From assembly GCA_017549765.1 (NCBI GenBank), contig JAFYNM010000015.1, positions 26,876 through 90,875 on the forward strand: 64,000 bases of DNA, given 5' to 3'. The notes beneath the pieces are model-generated. The model saw only the letters and a list, made by a program, of their open reading frames with translations, did no database searches and was not told the DNA's origin. This DNA comes from Bacteroidales bacterium. Lineage in GTDB: Bacteria; Bacteroidota; Bacteroidia; Bacteroidales; WCHB1-69. The stretch's first letter is position 1. Every line of letters starts with the position of its first letter. Below, one piece after another: positions 32,295 through 63,733 of the stretch. The position numbers were made by a program, and so were the translations under genes.

Positions 32295-33512
32295 TTACGG
32301 CAGATACAGATTCGAATCCCCGTAACTCAAAAAGCGATAGTCGTTGTCCAGGGCGTGTTGGTAGATGCGTTTCCACTCGTCTCCGAGCAGGGCGGAGATA
32401 AGGAGCAGCAGCGTGCTCTTGGGCTGGTGGAAGTTGGTGACGAGACCTTGCACCACCTGCAGCGGATAGCCCGGCAAGATGATGAGGCAGGTAGCCGCGT
32501 GCAGCATGTCTGTGTCTTGTTGCTCGAGGTAGTCCAAAATCGCCTGCAGGGAGGTTTCCAACGGGACCGTGCGCAGTTCCAGGTCCTCGTACATCTCCCA
32601 TTGCTGCACGTTGAGCGGGTCGGGGCGTCCGAGGGTCAACTTGGCACCGATGATGAAGAGCGACTCCAGCGTGCGCGTCACGGTGGTGCCCACGGCGATG
32701 CGGCGGCGCGACAGCAGGCTGAGCAAGGACTCGATGCGCTGGCGGGAGAGGACAATCTTCTCCTCGTGCATGAAGTGCCCGCCGATGGTCTCGCTGCTCA
32801 CGGGCTTGAAGGTGCCCGCGCCCACGTGGAGGGTCACATTCTCGGTGGCTATCCCCTTGGCTTTCAGCGCTTTCAATACAGCGGGGGTAAAGTGCAGTCC
32901 CGCCGTGGGCGCGGCCACGGAACCGTCGTATTTGGCATAGACCGTCTGGTAGCGTTGCTCATCGGTGGCCTCCGCCTCCCGTTTGATATAGGGTGGCAAC
33001 GGAATCTTGCCGTAGTGCTCGATCCATTCGGCGAAGCTGACGGACACATCGTCCCATTCAAACGTCACCGGGAAGGTGCCTTCCATGTTCTCGCCGCGAG
33101 TGGCCGTCACGCGGACAGCACGTCCGTTGACGGGCACATCGATAAAGAGCGGGTGTTTCCACTTCTTGGCATTGCCCACCATGCATTTCCACGTCACCTG
33201 GCCCGTCAGGGTGAAGGCCACCGCCGGGTCGTTGGTCGGGGCCAGAGGCTCCAGACAGAAAATCTCGATGGCCGCGCCCGTGGTGTTGTGCACGAGCAGT
33301 CGGGCATGGATAACCTTGGAGTCGTTGAAAATCAAGAGGTCATCGGGCGACAGGAAGTCGGGCAGCCGGTCGAAACGGCTGTCGGTGATCTGTCCGTGCG
33401 CATAGACCAGCAGCTTGGAGTGGTCGCGCTGTGCCGCCGGATAGAAGGCGATGCGTTCCTCAGGCAGCGGGTAGTCGTAATCGTCAATATGGAGGTTCTG
33501 TTCTTTCAGCAT
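32295..33512 (-). CDS. queA: S-adenosylmethionine:tRNA ribosyltransferase-isomerase (QueA)
   Basis: 405 residues from MLKEQNLHIDDYDYPLPEER. It transfers the ribose of SAM to preQ1 in tRNA, giving epoxyqueuosine. Family blocks seen: LPEERIAFYPAAQRDHSKLL, DLLIFNDSKVIHARLL, GKIPLPPYIKRE, YQTVYAKYDGSVAAPTAGLHF and ETIGGHFMHEE. QueG, which acts next, is encoded at 56504-58411. A -7 box (33521-33528) is 9 bases from the ATG, so the leader is very short. Confidence 0.96.
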   Translation of the reverse strand: MLKEQNLHIDDYDYPLPEERIAFYPAAQRDHSKLLVYAHGQITDSRFDRLPDFLSPDDLLIFNDSKVIHARLLVHNTTGAAIEIFCLEPLAPTNDPAVAFTLTGQVTWKCMVGNAKKWKHPLFIDVPVNGRAVRVTATRGENMEGTFPVTFEWDDVSVSFAEWIEHYGKIPLPPYIKREAEATDEQRYQTVYAKYDGSVAAPTAGLHFTPAVLKALKAKGIATENVTLHVGAGTFKPVSSETIGGHFMHEEKIVLSRQRIESLLSLLSRRRIAVGTTVTRTLESLFIIGAKLTLGRPDPLNVQQWEMYEDLELRTVPLETSLQAILDYLEQQDTDMLHAATCLIILPGYPLQVVQGLVTNFHQPKSTLLLLISALLGDEWKRIYQHALDNDYRFLSYGDSNLYLP

Positions 33513-33520
33513 AACGGGCG

Positions 33521-33528
33521 CAAAAATA
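33521..33528 (-). promoter_or_regulatory. -7 box of queA
   Basis: The minus strand reads TATTTTTG followed by CGCCCG, 8 bases before the ATG at 33512; a leaderless or nearly leaderless mRNA is implied. Confidence 0.6.
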
Positions 33529-33639
33529 CGAAAAAGATAGGACAGCACGACAGGCATTTTGTCGCCATCATATTTTTATCCTTAATTATCAGAACATTAT
33601 AAAAAACAAGAAGATACAACTTTCATTCTAAAAAAAGTG

Positions 33640-53875: not shown

Positions 53876-55663
<1,788 letters not shown>

Positions 55664-55670
55664 AAGGCGG

Positions 55671-55678
55671 CAAAGATA
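55671..55678 (-). promoter_or_regulatory. -7 box of lepA
   Basis: The minus strand reads TATCTTTG followed by CCGCC, 7 bases before the ATG at 55663; a very short leader is implied. Confidence 0.6.
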
Positions 55679-55694
55679 CAATTTTTATGCGAAA

Positions 55695-56360
55695 TCAGGC
55701 GCCTGCCAACACGATGACGAACTCGCCCTTGACCTCCTGTTGGGAAAAGTGTTCCACGGCCTCGTGGATGGTGCCCCGGAAGGTGAACTCATAGATCTTG
55801 GTCAGCTCTTTGGAGATGGCGATCTGGCGGTCGGGACCGATGATCTCCTCCATCTTGGCGAGGGACTTGACGAGACGGTGGGGCGACTCGTAGAAGATGA
55901 CGGTCTCTTCCATTTCGGCGAAGCGTTTCAGGAGGGTCTCCTTGCCCTTCTTGTGGGGCAGGAAGCCGTAGAAGTAGAAGCTGCTGCACGGGAGTCCCGA
56001 CTGCACGAGAGCGGGGATGAGGGCTGTGGCGCCGGGGAGGCACTCGACGGGGATCTCCTGGCGCACGCACTCGCGGATGAGCAGGAAGCCCGGGTCGGAG
56101 ATGCCCGGCGTGCCCGCATCGCTGACCAGCGCCACCGACTCGGCATCGCGGATCTGCTGCACATAGCCATCCACCTGCACATGTTCGTTGAAGATGTGGT
56201 AGGCCAGACAACGTTTGTCAATCTGATAGTGCTGCAGCAGATGCTTGGTGGTGCGGGTGTCCTCGGCGAGGATGAAATCGACACTCTTGAGCACGTTGAG
56301 GGCTCGCAGGGTGATGTCTTCCAGATTGCCGATGGGGGTTGGGACGATATAGAGTTTCAT
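55695..56360 (-). CDS. rsmI: 16S rRNA (cytidine1402-2'-O)-methyltransferase RsmI
   Basis: 221 residues from MKLYIVPTPIGNLEDITLRA. SAM-dependent tetrapyrrole-methylase fold: LYIVPTPIGNLEDIT, ILAEDTRTT, VALVSDAGTPGISDPGF and FYGFLPHKKGKE are all RsmI blocks. Shorter than E. coli RsmI because it lacks the C-terminal helical part, as usual in Bacteroidetes. A longer frame upstream overlaps the tRNA-Leu region and is rejected. Confidence 0.95.
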   Translation of the reverse strand: MKLYIVPTPIGNLEDITLRALNVLKSVDFILAEDTRTTKHLLQHYQIDKRCLAYHIFNEHVQVDGYVQQIRDAESVALVSDAGTPGISDPGFLLIRECVRQEIPVECLPGATALIPALVQSGLPCSSFYFYGFLPHKKGKETLLKRFAEMEETVIFYESPHRLVKSLAKMEEIIGPDRQIAISKELTKIYEFTFRGTIHEAVEHFSQQEVKGEFVIVLAGA

Positions 56361-56412
56361 GTCAGCGGTATTAACAATAAAAAAGAGGAAGGCTGTTGAA
56401 GACCTTCCTCGT

Positions 56413-56498
56413 TGGTGCCCAGAACAAGAGTCGAACTTGCACATCCGTTCGGATACTACACCCTGAATGTAGCGCGTCTACCATTCCGCCACCTGGGC
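56413..56498 (-). tRNA. tRNA-Leu (anticodon CAG)
   Basis: Acceptor GCCCAGG/TCTGGGC (one G-T pair), anticodon stem CTACA/TGTAG with loop TTCAGGG giving CAG, a long class II variable arm, T loop TTCGACTC, encoded CCA. Between rsmI and the queG-kdsD fusion. Confidence 0.95.
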
Positions 56499-56503
56499 AT
56501 TTT

Positions 56504-58411
56504 TCAATAGAGACCTTCTCTGATGAGATCGTGGATGTGAATCACCCCCAGGTATCTATTGTCAGCATCGACCACGAAAAGGTTGGTGATACTGTTGGTA
56601 TTCATATAGTTGACGGCGTCTGCCGCCAAGGTCTCTTCGTGTATGGTCTTGGGTGATTTTGTCATCACCTCTTTGGCGGTCAGGTGCGCGTAGTCCGCAG
56701 ACTTCTGCAGCATTCTTCGCAAGTCACCGTCCGTGATAGCCCCCACAATCCGATCGTCTTCCAACACGGCTGTCACGCCCAAACACTTGCCGGAGATTTC
56801 GAGGATAACCTCTTGGATAGAAGCATCCGGGGCAACAGCGGGTCTTTCGTTGAACTTGTAGAGATCCTTCACCTTCATGGTCAGGCGTTTGCCGAGTGCG
56901 CCGCCGGGGTGCAGCTTGGCGAAGTCCTGCGGGGTAAAGCCCCTCTCCACGATGAGTGCCGTCGCCAGCGCGTCGCCCATGGCCAACTGAGCGGTGGAAC
57001 TCGTGGTCGGTGCCAGGTTGTTGGGCGTGGCCTCCTTCAGGACGCTGCAGTTCAGCACGTGGTCGGCCGACTGCGCCAGGAAGGAGTTCATATTGCCCAC
57101 CATGGCAATCATCTTGTTCCCATTCTGTTTCAGGAATGGGGTCAACAGGGTTATCTCCGGCGTGTTGCCGCTCTTGGAGATGCAGAGCAGAACGTCGTCG
57201 GGCTGAATGATGCCCAGATCGCCGTGTACCGCATCGGCCGCGTGCATGAAGACTGCCGGTGTGCCGGTAGAGTTGAGTGTCGCCACTATCTTCTGCCCTA
57301 TGATGGCACTTTTCCCGATACCCGTTACAATCAGCCGGCCCTTGGAGTTCAAGATGAGCTTGACGCTCTCCTCAAAGTCCTGGTCCAAGTATTGAATCAA
57401 TCTCTCTACAGCCTCCGCCTCCTCTTTCAATACCCGCCCGGCGCATTGTAATATGTTGCTTTTCTCCGTCGTCAATATTTCAAAGTTGCGAGATTTCTCT
57501 CTCTTTATTTCAATAGCGTGATAGAATCTTGAATAGGTCCTCCGCGCTATTGCAGTGTCTCCAAAGTAAGACTTGAACTCCTCTTTCGTCAGGTTTTCAA
57601 AGTCCCGATTTTGGAGGCGCAAAAATACAGAAGTTTTTGACATCTTCAACACCTGCTGAAGATTTTTTTTGTTGCGGGGGCATTTTTCCTGACAGATGTC
57701 GCAGCCAAAGAGCAGCGGACTATCCTCTAACACACTATCATCCACCATCTTATTCTCCACAGTCTGATAGGCAAAACACTTCCGAGCATCGACCCTATAC
57801 GGGGTGTCCAGCGCATGTGCGGGACAGCTTCTGACGCAGATGTCACAGTCGCCGCAGTCGGAGATTTTGGCGGAATCGTAAGCGTCAACCCGCGCAGTGG
57901 TCAGCAAAATGCCGAGGACGAAGAAGGAGCCCGACTCGTTGTGGATGAGTCCGTTTTTGCCATAGCACCCCACCCCGCTCTGCACGGCCCACTGCTTCTC
58001 GGAGATGCGGGAGCTGTCCACGGTGATGCGGCACTGCGCACCAGGGCATTCCTGCTCCACGAATTCGGCCAACGGCTGCAGCTGTCGCTTCACCGCCTGA
58101 TGGTAGTCCTCCACCCATGTGTAGCGGGCGGTACGGTAGCGGTCGCTGACAGGCTGTGCATCCGTCAGGTAGCTCCATGTCACCACAATGACACTTCGAC
58201 AGCCCTCCAAGAGGGATTCAGGATTGAAACGCTGGTCGATTTCCCGCTCCAGAAAATGCATGTCTGCCTGATAGCCATCCGACAAAGCTTCTTCAAAAAG
58301 CACCTGTTGCTCACACAGCGCGTGGGCGGGCGCGATGCCGCACTGCATGAAGCCCAACTCCAGGGCTTTGGCTTTGACCTGAGCAGCACTCAACAGAGCA
58401 TCTTCCATCAT
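56504..58411 (-). CDS. QueG-KdsD fusion: epoxyqueuosine reductase + arabinose-5-phosphate isomerase
   Basis: 635 residues, one uninterrupted frame. Residues 1 to about 312: QueG, with Asp132 in ITVDSSRI, two 4Fe-4S motifs CGDCDICVRSC (186-196) and CDICQEKC (237-244), and the usual end EEFKSYFGDTAIARRTYSRF. Residues about 318-635: KdsD/KpsF, a SIS domain (RLIVTGIGKSAIIGQKI, AADAVHGDLG, ISKSGNTPEI) plus two CBS domains (from about 515). A linker near IEIKREKSRNFEIL joins them. QueG completes queuosine; KdsD makes arabinose-5-P for Kdo of LPS. Both halves look complete. An internal TTG near 57476 might allow separate KdsD translation. It overlaps DUF4292 by 4 bases. Confidence 0.88.
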   Translation of the reverse strand: MMEDALLSAAQVKAKALELGFMQCGIAPAHALCEQQVLFEEALSDGYQADMHFLEREIDQRFNPESLLEGCRSVIVVTWSYLTDAQPVSDRYRTARYTWVEDYHQAVKRQLQPLAEFVEQECPGAQCRITVDSSRISEKQWAVQSGVGCYGKNGLIHNESGSFFVLGILLTTARVDAYDSAKISDCGDCDICVRSCPAHALDTPYRVDARKCFAYQTVENKMVDDSVLEDSPLLFGCDICQEKCPRNKKNLQQVLKMSKTSVFLRLQNRDFENLTKEEFKSYFGDTAIARRTYSRFYHAIEIKREKSRNFEILTTEKSNILQCAGRVLKEEAEAVERLIQYLDQDFEESVKLILNSKGRLIVTGIGKSAIIGQKIVATLNSTGTPAVFMHAADAVHGDLGIIQPDDVLLCISKSGNTPEITLLTPFLKQNGNKMIAMVGNMNSFLAQSADHVLNCSVLKEATPNNLAPTTSSTAQLAMGDALATALIVERGFTPQDFAKLHPGGALGKRLTMKVKDLYKFNERPAVAPDASIQEVILEISGKCLGVTAVLEDDRIVGAITDGDLRRMLQKSADYAHLTAKEVMTKSPKTIHEETLAADAVNYMNTNSITNLFVVDADNRYLGVIHIHDLIREGLY

Positions 58412-59145
58412 GGCATCTTGATCTCTTTGAACTTGTCGGGAATACGGATGGAGGTGGGACCCGGCACGTCCAGACGCACCAGCTTCATCACGGCATCTAT
58501 CTCTATCAGATGATTCAGGTCACGCAGCACCAGCTCTGTGAAGAACGACTGCGTGGAATCGAGCGCCACATACTCTTTTGGCTCCGCCTCCAGACCCTTA
58601 AAGCGCAGAGCGGCTTCATTCTCGGGCGTCATATTGCCGTTAAAAACCGACTGTATCAAATCAAAATCGATGGGGAGGCCCGTCAGCCTGCGGAACGGCT
58701 CGTAAGTGCCTCGATAGTATTCGTATTTTAATTTGTTGACATAGATGATGCTGTCGGGGGTGCAGACCACGCGGATGAACTCGATGCCGGACGCGTGGAG
58801 ATTCAGGTAGAGGATGCTATCGACTCTGTTGACCATATAGAAGTTGCAGGTACGGGTGCCTTCGGGATCGGTCACATCGGCCTTGCCACGATAGGTAAGC
58901 CACTGATAGCCCTTTGCCACGGGTGGCAGCGTGTCCGTCATCGCCAAAGCACTGTCAGAGATCGAGACCTCCGACACGGCAGAAGTTCCCACAGTGGTCA
59001 TTCCCACAATAGTATCCGCAGGAGAGATATCCTCGAAGTATGCGACGCCGTTATCGGGGCTTGCACTGACCACCTTGCGACTATGGACACAACCGGTCAT
59101 CCACAACGCCAGCAAGAGAAGCCCCGCAATCTTAAGCCATTTCAT
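58408..59145 (-). CDS. DUF4292 lipoprotein
   Basis: 245 residues. Signal peptide with lipobox WMTGC (Cys19). The core KGYQWLTYRGKADVTDPEGT and DSILYLNLHASGIEFIRVVC matches DUF4292, a LolB-like half-barrel lipoprotein family of Bacteroidetes. An additional acidic linker (residues 25-75) precedes the domain. Its start abuts the stop of the T9SS type B gene (59146) and its stop overlaps the fusion gene (ATGA), so all three form one operon. Confidence 0.85.
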   Translation of the reverse strand: MKWLKIAGLLLLALWMTGCVHSRKVVSASPDNGVAYFEDISPADTIVGMTTVGTSAVSEVSISDSALAMTDTLPPVAKGYQWLTYRGKADVTDPEGTRTCNFYMVNRVDSILYLNLHASGIEFIRVVCTPDSIIYVNKLKYEYYRGTYEPFRRLTGLPIDFDLIQSVFNGNMTPENEAALRFKGLEAEPKEYVALDSTQSFFTELVLRDLNHLIEIDAVMKLVRLDVPGPTSIRIPDKFKEIKMP

Positions 59146-62001
59146 CTACTTGATGAGCGTGATGGTGCCGTTGTACTCCTTCGGGTCACCATTCAACGTG
59201 TTGAAGATGATATAGTAAACATACACATCCGACGGCAGGCGTCTGCCCGTCTTGTCACGGCCATCCCAGTAATCATAAGGATTGTTGGTCTGGAAGAGCA
59301 CATTGCCGTGACGGTCGTAAATCAGCATCTTATAGTTGTCAGGATCCACACCCTGTCCTTGCGGTGCCCAGGTCTCGTTCACACCGTCGCCATTCGGGGA
59401 GAAAGAGTTGGGGATGTAAAAGAAATAGGGCACCGTCACCTGCACGCGCGACTTGACGGAATCGACGCAGCCGTTGCTGTCGATGGCCGTCAGCGTTATG
59501 GCGTAGTAGCCTGGACGGGTATAGTCATGGGTCGGGTCGGTGACATTCTCCACGACATTGTCCAACGAAGAGATGTCGCCGAAATTCCAGATCAGGTGAT
59601 TGCCTGCAGCGGTAAGACTGTTGCAATAGACCGTGCCGACGCCGTTCTCGACATAGATGTCGGTCGGGTTGGCGATAAAGGCAGGCACCGGCAGCGGCAC
59701 CACCGTAACGGTGAAGGTGTCCGTTGTCACGCAGCCGCCCTCCATGGTGGCGCTCACCACGTAATCGGTCGTGGCCGTTGGGGAGACCGTGATGGTCGGG
59801 CCGACCTCGCCAGTACTCCATAGCATACCCTGGTTGTCAGGATGCGTGGCTGTGAGCGTGGAGGAGTAGCCTATGCAGATCGTGTCCTTGGTGGCCGTGA
59901 TCTCCGGGAATGCCAGCTCTGTGACATCAACGGTGGTAGAGGCATAATTCCGGCAACCGTTGTTGAAGGTCACCGTCACTTGATAGGTGGAGGTGATCTC
60001 CGGCTCCACACCACAAGACTGTGTCGTGTCGCCCGTGCTCCACTGATAGTGTTCGGGGGTAATACCATAATAGCTGTTGTCAGCCGTGACATTCAAGAGA
60101 ACGTGATCATTGGGGCAGATGTTGCCCATGGCTGTGTTGGTAGCCACCACCGGGGGAATAGAGACGTGTACCACGACCGTGTCTTTCAGGTCGAACACGT
60201 CGCCGCCGGCGTTGGTATAGTGATAGACGGCGATATATTGGGTGGTCACGGTAGGACTGACCACTTGGCGGAAGTTGCGTCCGACAATGCTGTCAGGATG
60301 GACAGAATTCTTATACCAGGTGATAGTGCCATCGGGATCCAGCGGCGTGATGGGAGTGAAGCGCCATGCCTCAGAAGGGGAGGCAGGGGTTTCCAGCACT
60401 TCCCAGCCAGTCATTCCACGCCCATTGGGAATCAAGATCTGCGAGGATGTCGTGTTCTGCAAGCCTATAATACCCTCATGGTTAGATGTATTGGTAGAAG
60501 CACAGCACTTTCTGTACTTCACATAGACATCGATAATGTTGGTACCCTCATAAATCACCATTTGGTAGGTGTTATACCATTGGTTGCCTTGGGAGTACTT
60601 GCCGTAAAGTCCCACCCGGTCGTAGTTGAAGACGAAGGCACGGCAGGGCGCGGTTCCTTGCACACCGACACGGATATCGCCTCCCGACAGATAATGGCCG
60701 GGGTAGATGTCTTCGTACACACCATAGATACAGTTAGCGTAATGATACGGCACTGCAGAATATGGCGGGGAGGTTGGCGGGGCGGAATAAGAGTATTGGC
60801 AATAGGTGGAGCTCGGCTGCGTCATGGAAATCAAGCCATTGGCACCGGGCCACACGCGGTCATAGATATTGCCAAAGAAAGCAAAGTGGAATGGCAACGA
60901 AGTACCACTCATATTGATCCAGTCATCATCCACAGAGGCCCCCAAGCTGTTGCCGATAGAGTACGGGAAAATCTGACTGGAATACGGGATGGAAGTCACC
61001 GTATAGTCGTAGGAGTATGGTCCCGTAGCCACCACATTGGCTTTCAAGATGGTGACAGGCTGGTCACAGTCAAACTCGATGTAGGAGACAGAGGTGTCTG
61101 CGGCAGTGATGTCGATACTCGGACACGCAGAGCCTTCAGGCGTCTCGAAGAGTTCGGAGATACATGTCACATCGGCAGCCCAGCCGGCCTTGTTCTGGTC
61201 ACCGGAAGCAGCCACATATTCGATAGTGATGGTGGATCCGCTGGAGATAATCATCGGCGGACGGTTTTGCGTGGAGGCATTCAAGGTGCTGGTGCAGAAC
61301 TGACCGATCAACCGCTTGTTGTTGTCATAATACTGTCCGTCGTAGATCTTCATGAGACCGTTCACGGAGAACTGGGTGAAGGTCATCTGGATATGAGAAC
61401 CCACCGGAGAGGAAAACTCACACCATGAGGTGCCGCTGGTGGACTGCATATTGCCATTGGGACCGCCCTCGTCATAGAACTTGGCATTACAGGTCAGATA
61501 GGTCATACCATACGACATCAGACAGTTCTGAGGGTTGGTGATATAGGCATAAACCTGGGCTATCCAGCCTTCGCTCAACTCGGCATAGTCGTTCACATCG
61601 TCAGAGTGAAAGACGAAAGTAAGGGAACGTCCGGAGGCAAGGATCTCACCGGGATCGTTCACTGAGTTGTATGCACCTATCAAGGTGGCATTCACATCCT
61701 CCCCGTCGAAGACAAAGAGGGTGTCGTGAACACCCATGCTGAACAGTTCGAAGTTGATATAAAGCTGTGTGCCATTGACATTGGTCTTCAGTTTCATCGT
61801 ATCGCGGATACCTGTGGCAAAATAGCCCTGCGGATGGGCATTGTCACCTTGATGTACAGCTGTGCCGCCAGGATCGTAAAAATACTTCGGATCCTCCCCA
61901 ATCTGGGTATAAGCCGCTGATGAACCCATGATGATATAGTTCTGCGCCACCAGGCCCATGAAAGGCATCAGCAGAAGCATGAAGACGAATATCTTTTTCA
62001 T
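59146..62001 (-). CDS. Large secreted protein with CUB and PKD domains and T9SS type B sorting domain
   Basis: 951 residues from MKKIFVFMLLLMPFMGLVAQ. A CUB-like domain follows the signal peptide (about 20-160), a second near 165-290, then a beta-rich middle (Ig/PKD type, including VSPTVTTQYIAVYHYTNAGG and a PKD motif HLIWNFGDISS near 820). The C-terminus, FIPNSFSPNGDGVNETW ... GRRLPSDVYVYYI ... ITLIK, is the gliding-motility-associated CHU_C type B sorting domain. Sec then T9SS export to the surface is inferred. The ATG at 62001 was chosen for the signal peptide. Partner of DUF4292 in the operon. Confidence 0.85.
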   Translation of the reverse strand: MKKIFVFMLLLMPFMGLVAQNYIIMGSSAAYTQIGEDPKYFYDPGGTAVHQGDNAHPQGYFATGIRDTMKLKTNVNGTQLYINFELFSMGVHDTLFVFDGEDVNATLIGAYNSVNDPGEILASGRSLTFVFHSDDVNDYAELSEGWIAQVYAYITNPQNCLMSYGMTYLTCNAKFYDEGGPNGNMQSTSGTSWCEFSSPVGSHIQMTFTQFSVNGLMKIYDGQYYDNNKRLIGQFCTSTLNASTQNRPPMIISSGSTITIEYVAASGDQNKAGWAADVTCISELFETPEGSACPSIDITAADTSVSYIEFDCDQPVTILKANVVATGPYSYDYTVTSIPYSSQIFPYSIGNSLGASVDDDWINMSGTSLPFHFAFFGNIYDRVWPGANGLISMTQPSSTYCQYSYSAPPTSPPYSAVPYHYANCIYGVYEDIYPGHYLSGGDIRVGVQGTAPCRAFVFNYDRVGLYGKYSQGNQWYNTYQMVIYEGTNIIDVYVKYRKCCASTNTSNHEGIIGLQNTTSSQILIPNGRGMTGWEVLETPASPSEAWRFTPITPLDPDGTITWYKNSVHPDSIVGRNFRQVVSPTVTTQYIAVYHYTNAGGDVFDLKDTVVVHVSIPPVVATNTAMGNICPNDHVLLNVTADNSYYGITPEHYQWSTGDTTQSCGVEPEITSTYQVTVTFNNGCRNYASTTVDVTELAFPEITATKDTICIGYSSTLTATHPDNQGMLWSTGEVGPTITVSPTATTDYVVSATMEGGCVTTDTFTVTVVPLPVPAFIANPTDIYVENGVGTVYCNSLTAAGNHLIWNFGDISSLDNVVENVTDPTHDYTRPGYYAITLTAIDSNGCVDSVKSRVQVTVPYFFYIPNSFSPNGDGVNETWAPQGQGVDPDNYKMLIYDRHGNVLFQTNNPYDYWDGRDKTGRRLPSDVYVYYIIFNTLNGDPKEYNGTITLIK

Positions 62002-62088
62002 ATCGCGAATTTTCAAAACTTTATTAAGACGAATAATATCCTATTTTATTGCATTATAAACGTAAAAAACCTACAAAATCTTGGACCA

Positions 62089-63243
62089 TCAAGTCAACCG
62101 CTCCTCTTTTTTCTTTCCTTGTCCATCAAAAAAGCCCACCACCACCGAGGCTGCCTTGTCGGAGGCAGATCCATCTCCAAGCTGCTGACACAAGGAATGA
62201 TAATCATCCTTCATCCGTTGGATATTATCTGCATCTTCCGTGATTTTATAGAGTTCCTCTTTCAGGTGCCGCGTGTCGAAATCGTGCTGGATCAGCTCTT
62301 TGACAATGGGCTTGTCGGCGATCAGATTCGGCAGGGAGATGAAGTGGATGCCTTTGATGAGTTGCTTGGCGATGATATAGGAGACCTCGCTGCCGGCGTA
62401 GCAGACCACCTGGGGCACGCCGAAGAGGGCTGTCTCCAGGGTGGCTGTCCCCGACGTGACAATCGCGGCTTTGGCATTGGCTAGCAAGGGATAGACGGAG
62501 CCCGTGACACGCGTGACGGGCGTGTCGCCGATCATGCGGTCGTACAACTCCTTGGGCTGCCAGCTGACCGTAGAGACCACAAACTGATATTGCGGGAACA
62601 GCGGCACCATCTTCAGCATCTGCGGCAACAAGGCCATGATCTCCTGTCGCCGGCTGCCGGGCAACAGGGCAATGATCTCGCGTTCGTCCAGACGGTTGTC
62701 GGTCCTGAAATCCCTGAGTTCTTCGCTCTCCCGCACCTCGTGGGTGATGGCGTCCAAGAGCGGATGGCCCACATAGTGGACCTGCATCCCGTTTTTGGCA
62801 TAGAACGCCTCCTCAAAAGGCAGGATGACCATCATCTCATCCACATGCTTCTTGATGGTGCGGATGCGGCCCTTCTTCCAGGCCCAGATCTGCGGTGAGA
62901 TATAGTAGAAGACCGGTATCTGATGCTCCTTGGCAAATTTTGCGACACGCAGGTTGAAGCCGGGGTAATCGACCAGAATCAGCGCATCGGGCTTGTATTG
63001 GAGGATATCCTCTTTGCAGAAACGAAGCAGTCCCAAGATAGTCTTGAGGTGCACGAAGACCTCCCAGAAGCCCATGAAGGAGATATCCTTGTAGTGCTTC
63101 ACGGAAGTGCCGCCCTCGGCAGACATCAGGTCGCCACCCCAGAAGCGGAACTCCGCCTGGGGGTCGCGACGGCGCAGCGCCTTCATCAGGTTGGAGGCGT
63201 GCAGGTCGCCGGAGGCCTCGCCAGCAATGAGGTAGTAGCGCAT
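62089..63243 (-). CDS. lpxB: Lipid-A-disaccharide synthase
   Basis: 384 residues. MRYYLIAGEASGDLHASNLM and FWGGDLMSAEGG at the N-terminus, KPDALILVDYPGFNLRVAKF, YYISPQIWAWKKGRIRTIKK and the later LPGSRRQEI and SGTATLETALFGVPQVVCYA are LpxB blocks. GT19 glycosyltransferase of lipid A synthesis at the inner membrane. It starts 1 base after the yqeY stop. Confidence 0.97.
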   Translation of the reverse strand: MRYYLIAGEASGDLHASNLMKALRRRDPQAEFRFWGGDLMSAEGGTSVKHYKDISFMGFWEVFVHLKTILGLLRFCKEDILQYKPDALILVDYPGFNLRVAKFAKEHQIPVFYYISPQIWAWKKGRIRTIKKHVDEMMVILPFEEAFYAKNGMQVHYVGHPLLDAITHEVRESEELRDFRTDNRLDEREIIALLPGSRRQEIMALLPQMLKMVPLFPQYQFVVSTVSWQPKELYDRMIGDTPVTRVTGSVYPLLANAKAAIVTSGTATLETALFGVPQVVCYAGSEVSYIIAKQLIKGIHFISLPNLIADKPIVKELIQHDFDTRHLKEELYKITEDADNIQRMKDDYHSLCQQLGDGSASDKAASVVVGFFDGQGKKKEERLT

Positions 63244-63725: not shown

Positions 63726-63733
63726 CAAAAATA
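63726..63733 (-). promoter_or_regulatory. -7 box of yqeY-lpxB
   Basis: The minus strand reads TATTTTTG followed by CAGGC, 25 bases before the yqeY ATG. Confidence 0.65.

Follow-up and report, generated by a model that had tools for sequence, protein, structure and literature searches.

A QueG-KdsD fusion in one genus of Bacteroidales, with three apparent origins by stop-codon loss and a promoter-like box kept inside queG

The window, a stretch of 64,000 nucleotides of a Bacteroidales contig, carries on its minus strand, at positions 56504-58411, a single uninterrupted frame of 635 codons that reads through a QueG and a KdsD protein. QueG is a tRNA modification enzyme and KdsD an enzyme on the way to an outer-membrane sugar, their functions being unrelated, and we know of no metabolic link between the two. 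The fused gene and its neighbours are the following (genomes are referred to below by our own numbers, that of the window being G000).

56413..56498, minus strand: tRNA-Leu (CAG), 5 nt beyond the end of the fused ORF (Rfam)
56504..58411, minus strand: fused ORF QueG-KdsD, 635 aa (ORF, Pfam and NCBIfam)
56507..57475, minus strand: KdsD half if made from an internal TTG, residues 313-635, 323 aa, SIS plus two CBS domains (putative separate initiation)
57482..58411, minus strand: QueG half, residues 1-310, DUF1730 plus double 4Fe-4S (Pfam, NCBIfam, alignment to solved chains)
58408..59145, minus strand: gene for a LolB1-like outer-membrane lipoprotein insertase, directly upstream of the fused ORF (neighbour annotation)
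59146..62016, minus strand: T9SS type B sorting-domain protein (neighbour annotation)
62089..63243, minus strand: lpxB, lipid-A-disaccharide synthase (neighbour annotation)

The Pfam matches in the 635-aa protein are QueG_DUF1730, a double 4Fe-4S domain, SIS and two CBS stretches, and no further domain beyond those of QueG and KdsD was matched in Pfam or NCBIfam. The N-terminal half has the domain content of QueG and scores 222.5 bits against the TIGR00276 family (cut-off 200), covering profile positions 1-317 of 337. Asp132 pairs with the Asp of the D-T-G motif in two solved QueG chains (5d6s and 5d08), with which the cysteine-rich FeS motifs also align; we take this Asp to be catalytic and the aligned cysteines to be the ligands of the two 4Fe-4S clusters. 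The window protein differs from the solved chains in that the alignment ends near residue 287, to be followed by a KpsF-type isomerase, and in that residues 132-134 read D-S-S in place of D-T-G.

The isomerase occupies residues 317 to 635, approximately, and is of the KpsF/GutQ type with SIS and CBS domains. It resembles the known KdsD/KpsF/GutQ proteins (2xhz, 3k2v, 4o9k) and exceeds the cut-off of the TIGR00393 subfamily (313.9 bits against 203.7). Unlike in those proteins, neither a stop nor an ATG separates the isomerase from QueG, and the scores fall below the E. coli-type equivalog cut-offs, with 314.9 bits against 505 for KdsD (NF008141) and 276.1 bits against 481 for GutQ (NF008581). 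The probable identity as an arabinose-5-phosphate isomerase therefore comes from the subfamily match and the presence of kdsA in the genome. These results bear out what the earlier note had read from the letters of the window, namely an in-frame fusion of two complete-looking enzymes with Asp132 and both FeS motifs in the QueG half and a SIS and two CBS domains in the isomerase half.

Among 40 genomes of the genus, queG and kdsD form a fused open frame in 23 and are adjacent but separate in 13, the adjacent kdsD is lost in one, and three give no match. The 23 fused loci comprise six in the clade of the window (clade A), G024, and 16 in a further clade (clade C), and include G003, where the N-terminus is cut by the contig end. 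Five of the 13 separate pairs are in frame with one stop between the genes, two are in frame with two stops, and six lie in different frames. The junction is open in the same way in six of six clade A genomes. Five named Bacteroidales metagenome-assembled genomes (MAGs), whose proteins are 90-97% identical to that of the window, show the full frame; the titles of four RGIG MAGs name water-buffalo rumen, yak omasum and sheep rumen as sources, and the title of the fifth (RUI581) gives no source. Being open in these five MAGs and in 23 of the 40 genus genomes, the frame is neither a chance event nor a local assembly error. The earlier note had reckoned with a private accident or an assembly error, should all relatives in the clade have separate genes; this did not occur, and both states coexist in the genus. 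G018, which is 94% complete, lacks any QueG-KdsD match and its close RpoB relatives G019, G028 and G035 carry both genes; its absence is possibly an assembly gap.

In the family (f1, 104 genomes), queG and kdsD are adjacent without fusion in G067, G071, G119, G120 and G121. G071 had appeared as a fourth fusion from an open frame value of 675 aa and was ruled out, as its DNA has a TGA and a TAG between the genes. Outside the family, none of the matches listed for 393 genomes of the order covers both halves, and among the matches listed for a phylum set of 296 genomes only that of G000 does, where both lists favour stronger scores and distant fusions reported as two separate matches could be missed. 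G678, with KdsD in a 598-aa frame, was rejected as a fusion, there being no QueG match in the 4 kb around it. No description of a QueG-KdsD fusion was found among open-licence papers, judged by title or the start of the abstract; passages of one such paper (PMC11130926) treat fusions of a transporter with Tgt.

A careful RpoB tree requires three changes between the fused and the separate state. It holds 30 genomes, 27 of them with a known state (G008, G018 and G030 have no state to count), and includes 9 of the 16 clade C genomes, with G014 left out for its partial RpoB. The AU test on this tree rejects the union of clade A with clade C (p 0.0011), of G024 with clade C (3e-6), and of clade A with G024 (7e-6). 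A tree of QueG and KdsD together, built from 40 loci (35 of the genus and 5 outgroup) with the junction columns omitted and the truncated G003 dropped, likewise needs three changes and rejects all three unions, which speaks against the transfer of one fused gene. At the junction, the separate loci G033 and G034 read TAG TAT CTT TGA GGT ATG and 11 of the 16 clade C genomes read GAG CAT CTT TGT AGA ATG; the other five vary and have no stop. G024 has TAT at the position of the TAA in G016 and G029. From trees and junctions, the fusion evidently arose three times by stop-codon loss within one genus. In the gene tree, clade C and the separate loci G033 and G034 meet in an unresolved fork, and the genes of these two could have been split again; in the RpoB tree, G033 is the sister of the clade C genomes.

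The ATG of the fused ORF at 58411 overlaps the stop of the upstream lolB-like gene, and beyond the tRNA-Leu the window continues with rsmI and then lepA. In the genus, lolB precedes queG in all neighbour-searched loci that hold queG. Further upstream, the loci of clade A, that of G024 and, among the separate ones, those of G004, G015, G016, G019, G022, G023, G027, G028, G029, G032 and G035 carry lpxB and/or the T9SS substrate gene; neither gave a match in the available upstream stretch of G012, G021 and G026 (clade C), G025, G033 and G034. Two genomes from other genera of the family, G064 and G090, have no QueG match, and in both kdsD directly follows lolB, suggesting that kdsD belongs with the envelope genes and that queG is the odd neighbour. 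The run of lpxB, T9SS substrate gene and lolB in the window thus explains the pairing without signalling. Behind kdsD, tRNA-Leu(CAG) is present in 20 of the 23 other genus genomes checked, mostly within about 10 nt and at about 110 nt in G004, the contig ending too soon for a tRNA in the remaining three (G016, G033 and G034). No tRNA was found behind kdsD in the fetched stretches of G067, G119, G120 and G121, and the tRNA-Leu(CAG) may have arrived later, under the putative promoter of kdsD.

Both halves have low pN/pS ratios, of 0.109 for QueG and 0.084 for KdsD in clade A and of 0.214 and 0.131 in clade C (15 of the 16 genomes, the truncated G003 being dropped from the clade C statistics). 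Purifying selection evidently acts on both halves. The median synonymous divergence among the same 15 clade C genomes is 1.31 for QueG and 0.92 for KdsD.

No second copy of either half was found in G000 at E<=0.001. The genome contains tgt and two QueA-family proteins, one on another contig and one in the window at 32295-33557 (minus strand), about 23 kb from the fusion, where the earlier note had rightly placed a queA. The window copy of 420 aa is longer than the copy at contig 28:73103-74173 (open frame of 368 aa). The kdsA gene scores above cut-off in 33 of the 40 genus genomes, G000 included. A queH gene was found in none of the 40, and is present in 8 of 9 and 13 of 13 genomes of two sister genera (g34 and g38) that have no QueG match. 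In family f1, QueG and QueH are nearly mutually exclusive, with both present in G121, and G064 and G065 have Tgt with neither QueG nor QueH seen. The fused gene would be the sole candidate found for both steps in G000, and both of its halves are presumably active.

Around the junction and upstream of the operon, the window has five smaller features.

57473..57475, minus strand: internal TTG, candidate start codon of a separate KdsD, in a stretch without synonymous change among six genomes
57473..57505, minus strand: junction, site of the queG stop codon or codons in separate relatives, open in the clade of the window (aligned junction DNA)
57620..57627, minus strand: TATTTTTG, predicted Bacteroidota -7 box within queG, ahead of the internal TTG by about 145 nt (aligned junctions)
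57647..57649, minus strand: TTG ahead of the -7 box at a spacing of 19 nt, possible -33 element (seen in all six loci of clade A and variable in the others)
63726..63733, minus strand: TATTTTTG box upstream of the gene preceding lpxB, candidate promoter of the long operon (putative role)

The box inside queG, at 57627-57620, matches the sigma-ABfr -7 consensus TAnnTTTG, which is given for Bacteroides in a passage of PMC7366714. At the -33 position, where the consensus is TTTG, the six clade A loci have TTG at 19-nt spacing, and the element is variable and weak outside clade A. TATTTTTG is invariant in 36 of 36 adjacent loci of the genus, 152-167 nt ahead of the conserved KdsD core (residue 317), and is found in four of the five adjacent outgroup loci, being missing in the widely spaced pair of G071. 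At the aligned place it occurs in none of 20 control queG genes without kdsD behind them, in whose genomes a kdsD match lies elsewhere (17) or none is listed (G046, G097 and G126). The Fisher test for 40 of 41 against 0 of 20 gives 3e-15, which is not a clean probability because the rows are related, and the controls are more diverged than the loci compared with them. In three of the 20 controls, a TAnnTTTG is found at another place within the final 260 nt, and in one of these it is TATTTTTG 14 nt before the end of the gene. In three of the 20, the box residues are likewise Phe-Leu, encoded by TTT CTG, TTC CTT and TTT CTC and never by TTT TTG.

The codons around the box are unusually fixed: over the 36 loci, six of 228 amino-acid-invariant columns are also codon-invariant, all at QueG residues 249-283 and including the box codons TTT TTG, and in KdsD the count is 0 of 146. 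Of the 42 TAnnTTTG sites in the window, 26 are followed within 100 nt by the start of an ORF or tRNA on the same strand, compared with 10.3% of random positions, so the motif is promoter-like in this genome. The box inside queG thus appears to be a promoter. It is akin to the sigma-ABfr promoters of Bacteroides in its -7 motif, and internal starts are known there, with passages of PMC7366714 giving 21% of the mapped transcription starts of B. thetaiotaomicron as internal to genes. This putative promoter differs in lying inside a fused ORF whose codons it constrains.

The old kdsD start is kept in frame in the fused genes, as TTG in six of six clade A genomes and as ATG in 15 of 15 full-length clade C genomes analysed. 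Among 20-codon windows of the ORF, the two non-overlapping ones with the least synonymous change are, in each of the two clades, the old start region and the box region, with values of 0.00 and 0.03 (mean 0.41) in clade A and of 0.13 and 0.28 (mean 0.55) in clade C. The window at the start begins 11 codons before the old start in clade A and 22 before it in clade C, and the window at the box begins 58-59 codons before it. Downstream of the old start, clade C shows no special conservation. According to a passage of PMC6847099, Bacteroidota initiate without Shine-Dalgarno sites and prefer an A at -3 and weak structure. An A is present at -3 of the old start in clades A and C, and the predicted accessibility of the internal start ranges from the 71st to the 100th percentile in clade A and from the 11th to the 93rd in clade C. 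Rfam finds a tRNA and no other known RNA element in 55600-59200, and a conserved leader structure has no support in clade A, where one of 49 predicted pairs shows a two-sided change. The proposed separate production of the C-terminal part of a long ORF resembles genes-within-genes whose C-terminal domains are translated separately, such as those of the Rpn proteins (PMC10327210). In contrast to the Rpn case, the inner product here is a metabolic enzyme, encoded in relatives by a gene of its own, and a promoter-like box lies in the ORF.

We consider it likely, at a probability of roughly 0.65, that an internal promoter and start codon still give a separate KdsD, with the fused protein as an additional product of read-through. 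On this reading of the sequences, queG and kdsD would have been neighbours on one strand, and loss of the intervening stop would have joined their frames. The kdsD gene probably keeps a sigma-ABfr-type promoter in the 3' end of queG together with its old start (TTG in the window, ATG in clade C). From the internal transcript, which would be able to run on into the tRNA-Leu, a free KdsD of about 323 aa is presumably made, and the upstream promoter would yield a 70-kDa QueG-KdsD read-through product. The fusion would be tolerated, since the KdsD supply would be independent of it and QueG would tolerate a C-terminal partner, and it might be mildly useful. The suggestion of the earlier note that the two genes may simply share a promoter then holds as half of the story, the other half being the conserved promoter-like box and the old start codon that kdsD retains inside queG. 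In a bolder and unlikely version, free KdsD and QueG-KdsD would co-assemble into mixed isomerase tetramers carrying a few QueG arms, at a ratio set by the internal and the operon promoters; the locus would have been repeatedly selected, and three lineages would have converged on tethering a tRNA-modifying enzyme to one of the Kdo pathway.

The box and leader could instead serve only the downstream tRNA-Leu, the fused polypeptide then being the only source of both enzymes. The tRNA begins 5 nt after the ORF and is widespread behind kdsD in the genus, and in G025, where kdsD is gone, the box is kept and tRNA-Leu(CAG) lies right behind queG, indicating that the tRNA may account for part of the role of the box in the genus. 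G025 has a 48%-identical kdsD on another contig (contig 26), adjoining kdsA; on contig 66 of G032, a second partial KdsD match overlaps a second KdsA match. However, G067, G119, G120 and G121 have the box too, with no tRNA found in the stretches fetched, so the outgroup box does not need one, and a promoter for the tRNA by itself gives no account of the retained old start or of the scarce synonymous change at and just before it. We regard this alternative as improbable. A degrading gene or an assembly artefact is very improbable indeed: the named relatives are themselves metagenome-assembled, but all six clade A genomes agree at the junction, the four RGIG MAGs with the full frame come from different animals or samples and the fifth is an RUI MAG, and the low pN/pS of both halves speaks against decay.

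Selected functional coupling, in which queuosine synthesis is tethered to Kdo supply or a redox or translation signal is passed on, would fit the three independent origins and the persistence of the fusion in 16 clade C genomes despite the synonymous divergence given above. Against it, the linker has little amino-acid similarity between clades, the fused protein contains no additional matched domain, and 13 relatives in the genus keep the genes separate; the linker is short and constrained at the DNA level. The locus can be explained by proximity, a shared frame and an independent start of kdsD, and we think coupling somewhat more doubtful still than a box serving the tRNA alone. The earlier note had proposed that LPS supply might be tied to a signal from the FeS clusters or from translation, and nothing we found points to such a signal.

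With a separately expressed kdsD as the preferred reading, the box would be a promoter that limits codon choice in the enzyme gene around it. The genus shows the stages from two genes to one, from overlapping genes in different frames through pairs in the same frame with one or two stops to open fusions. Three apparently independent fusions together with a conserved internal promoter-like box amount to a naturally replicated experiment on the reasons for gene fusion. They also carry a warning that a fusion need not imply a functional linkage, as the "Rosetta stone" inference would here pair queuosine with Kdo.
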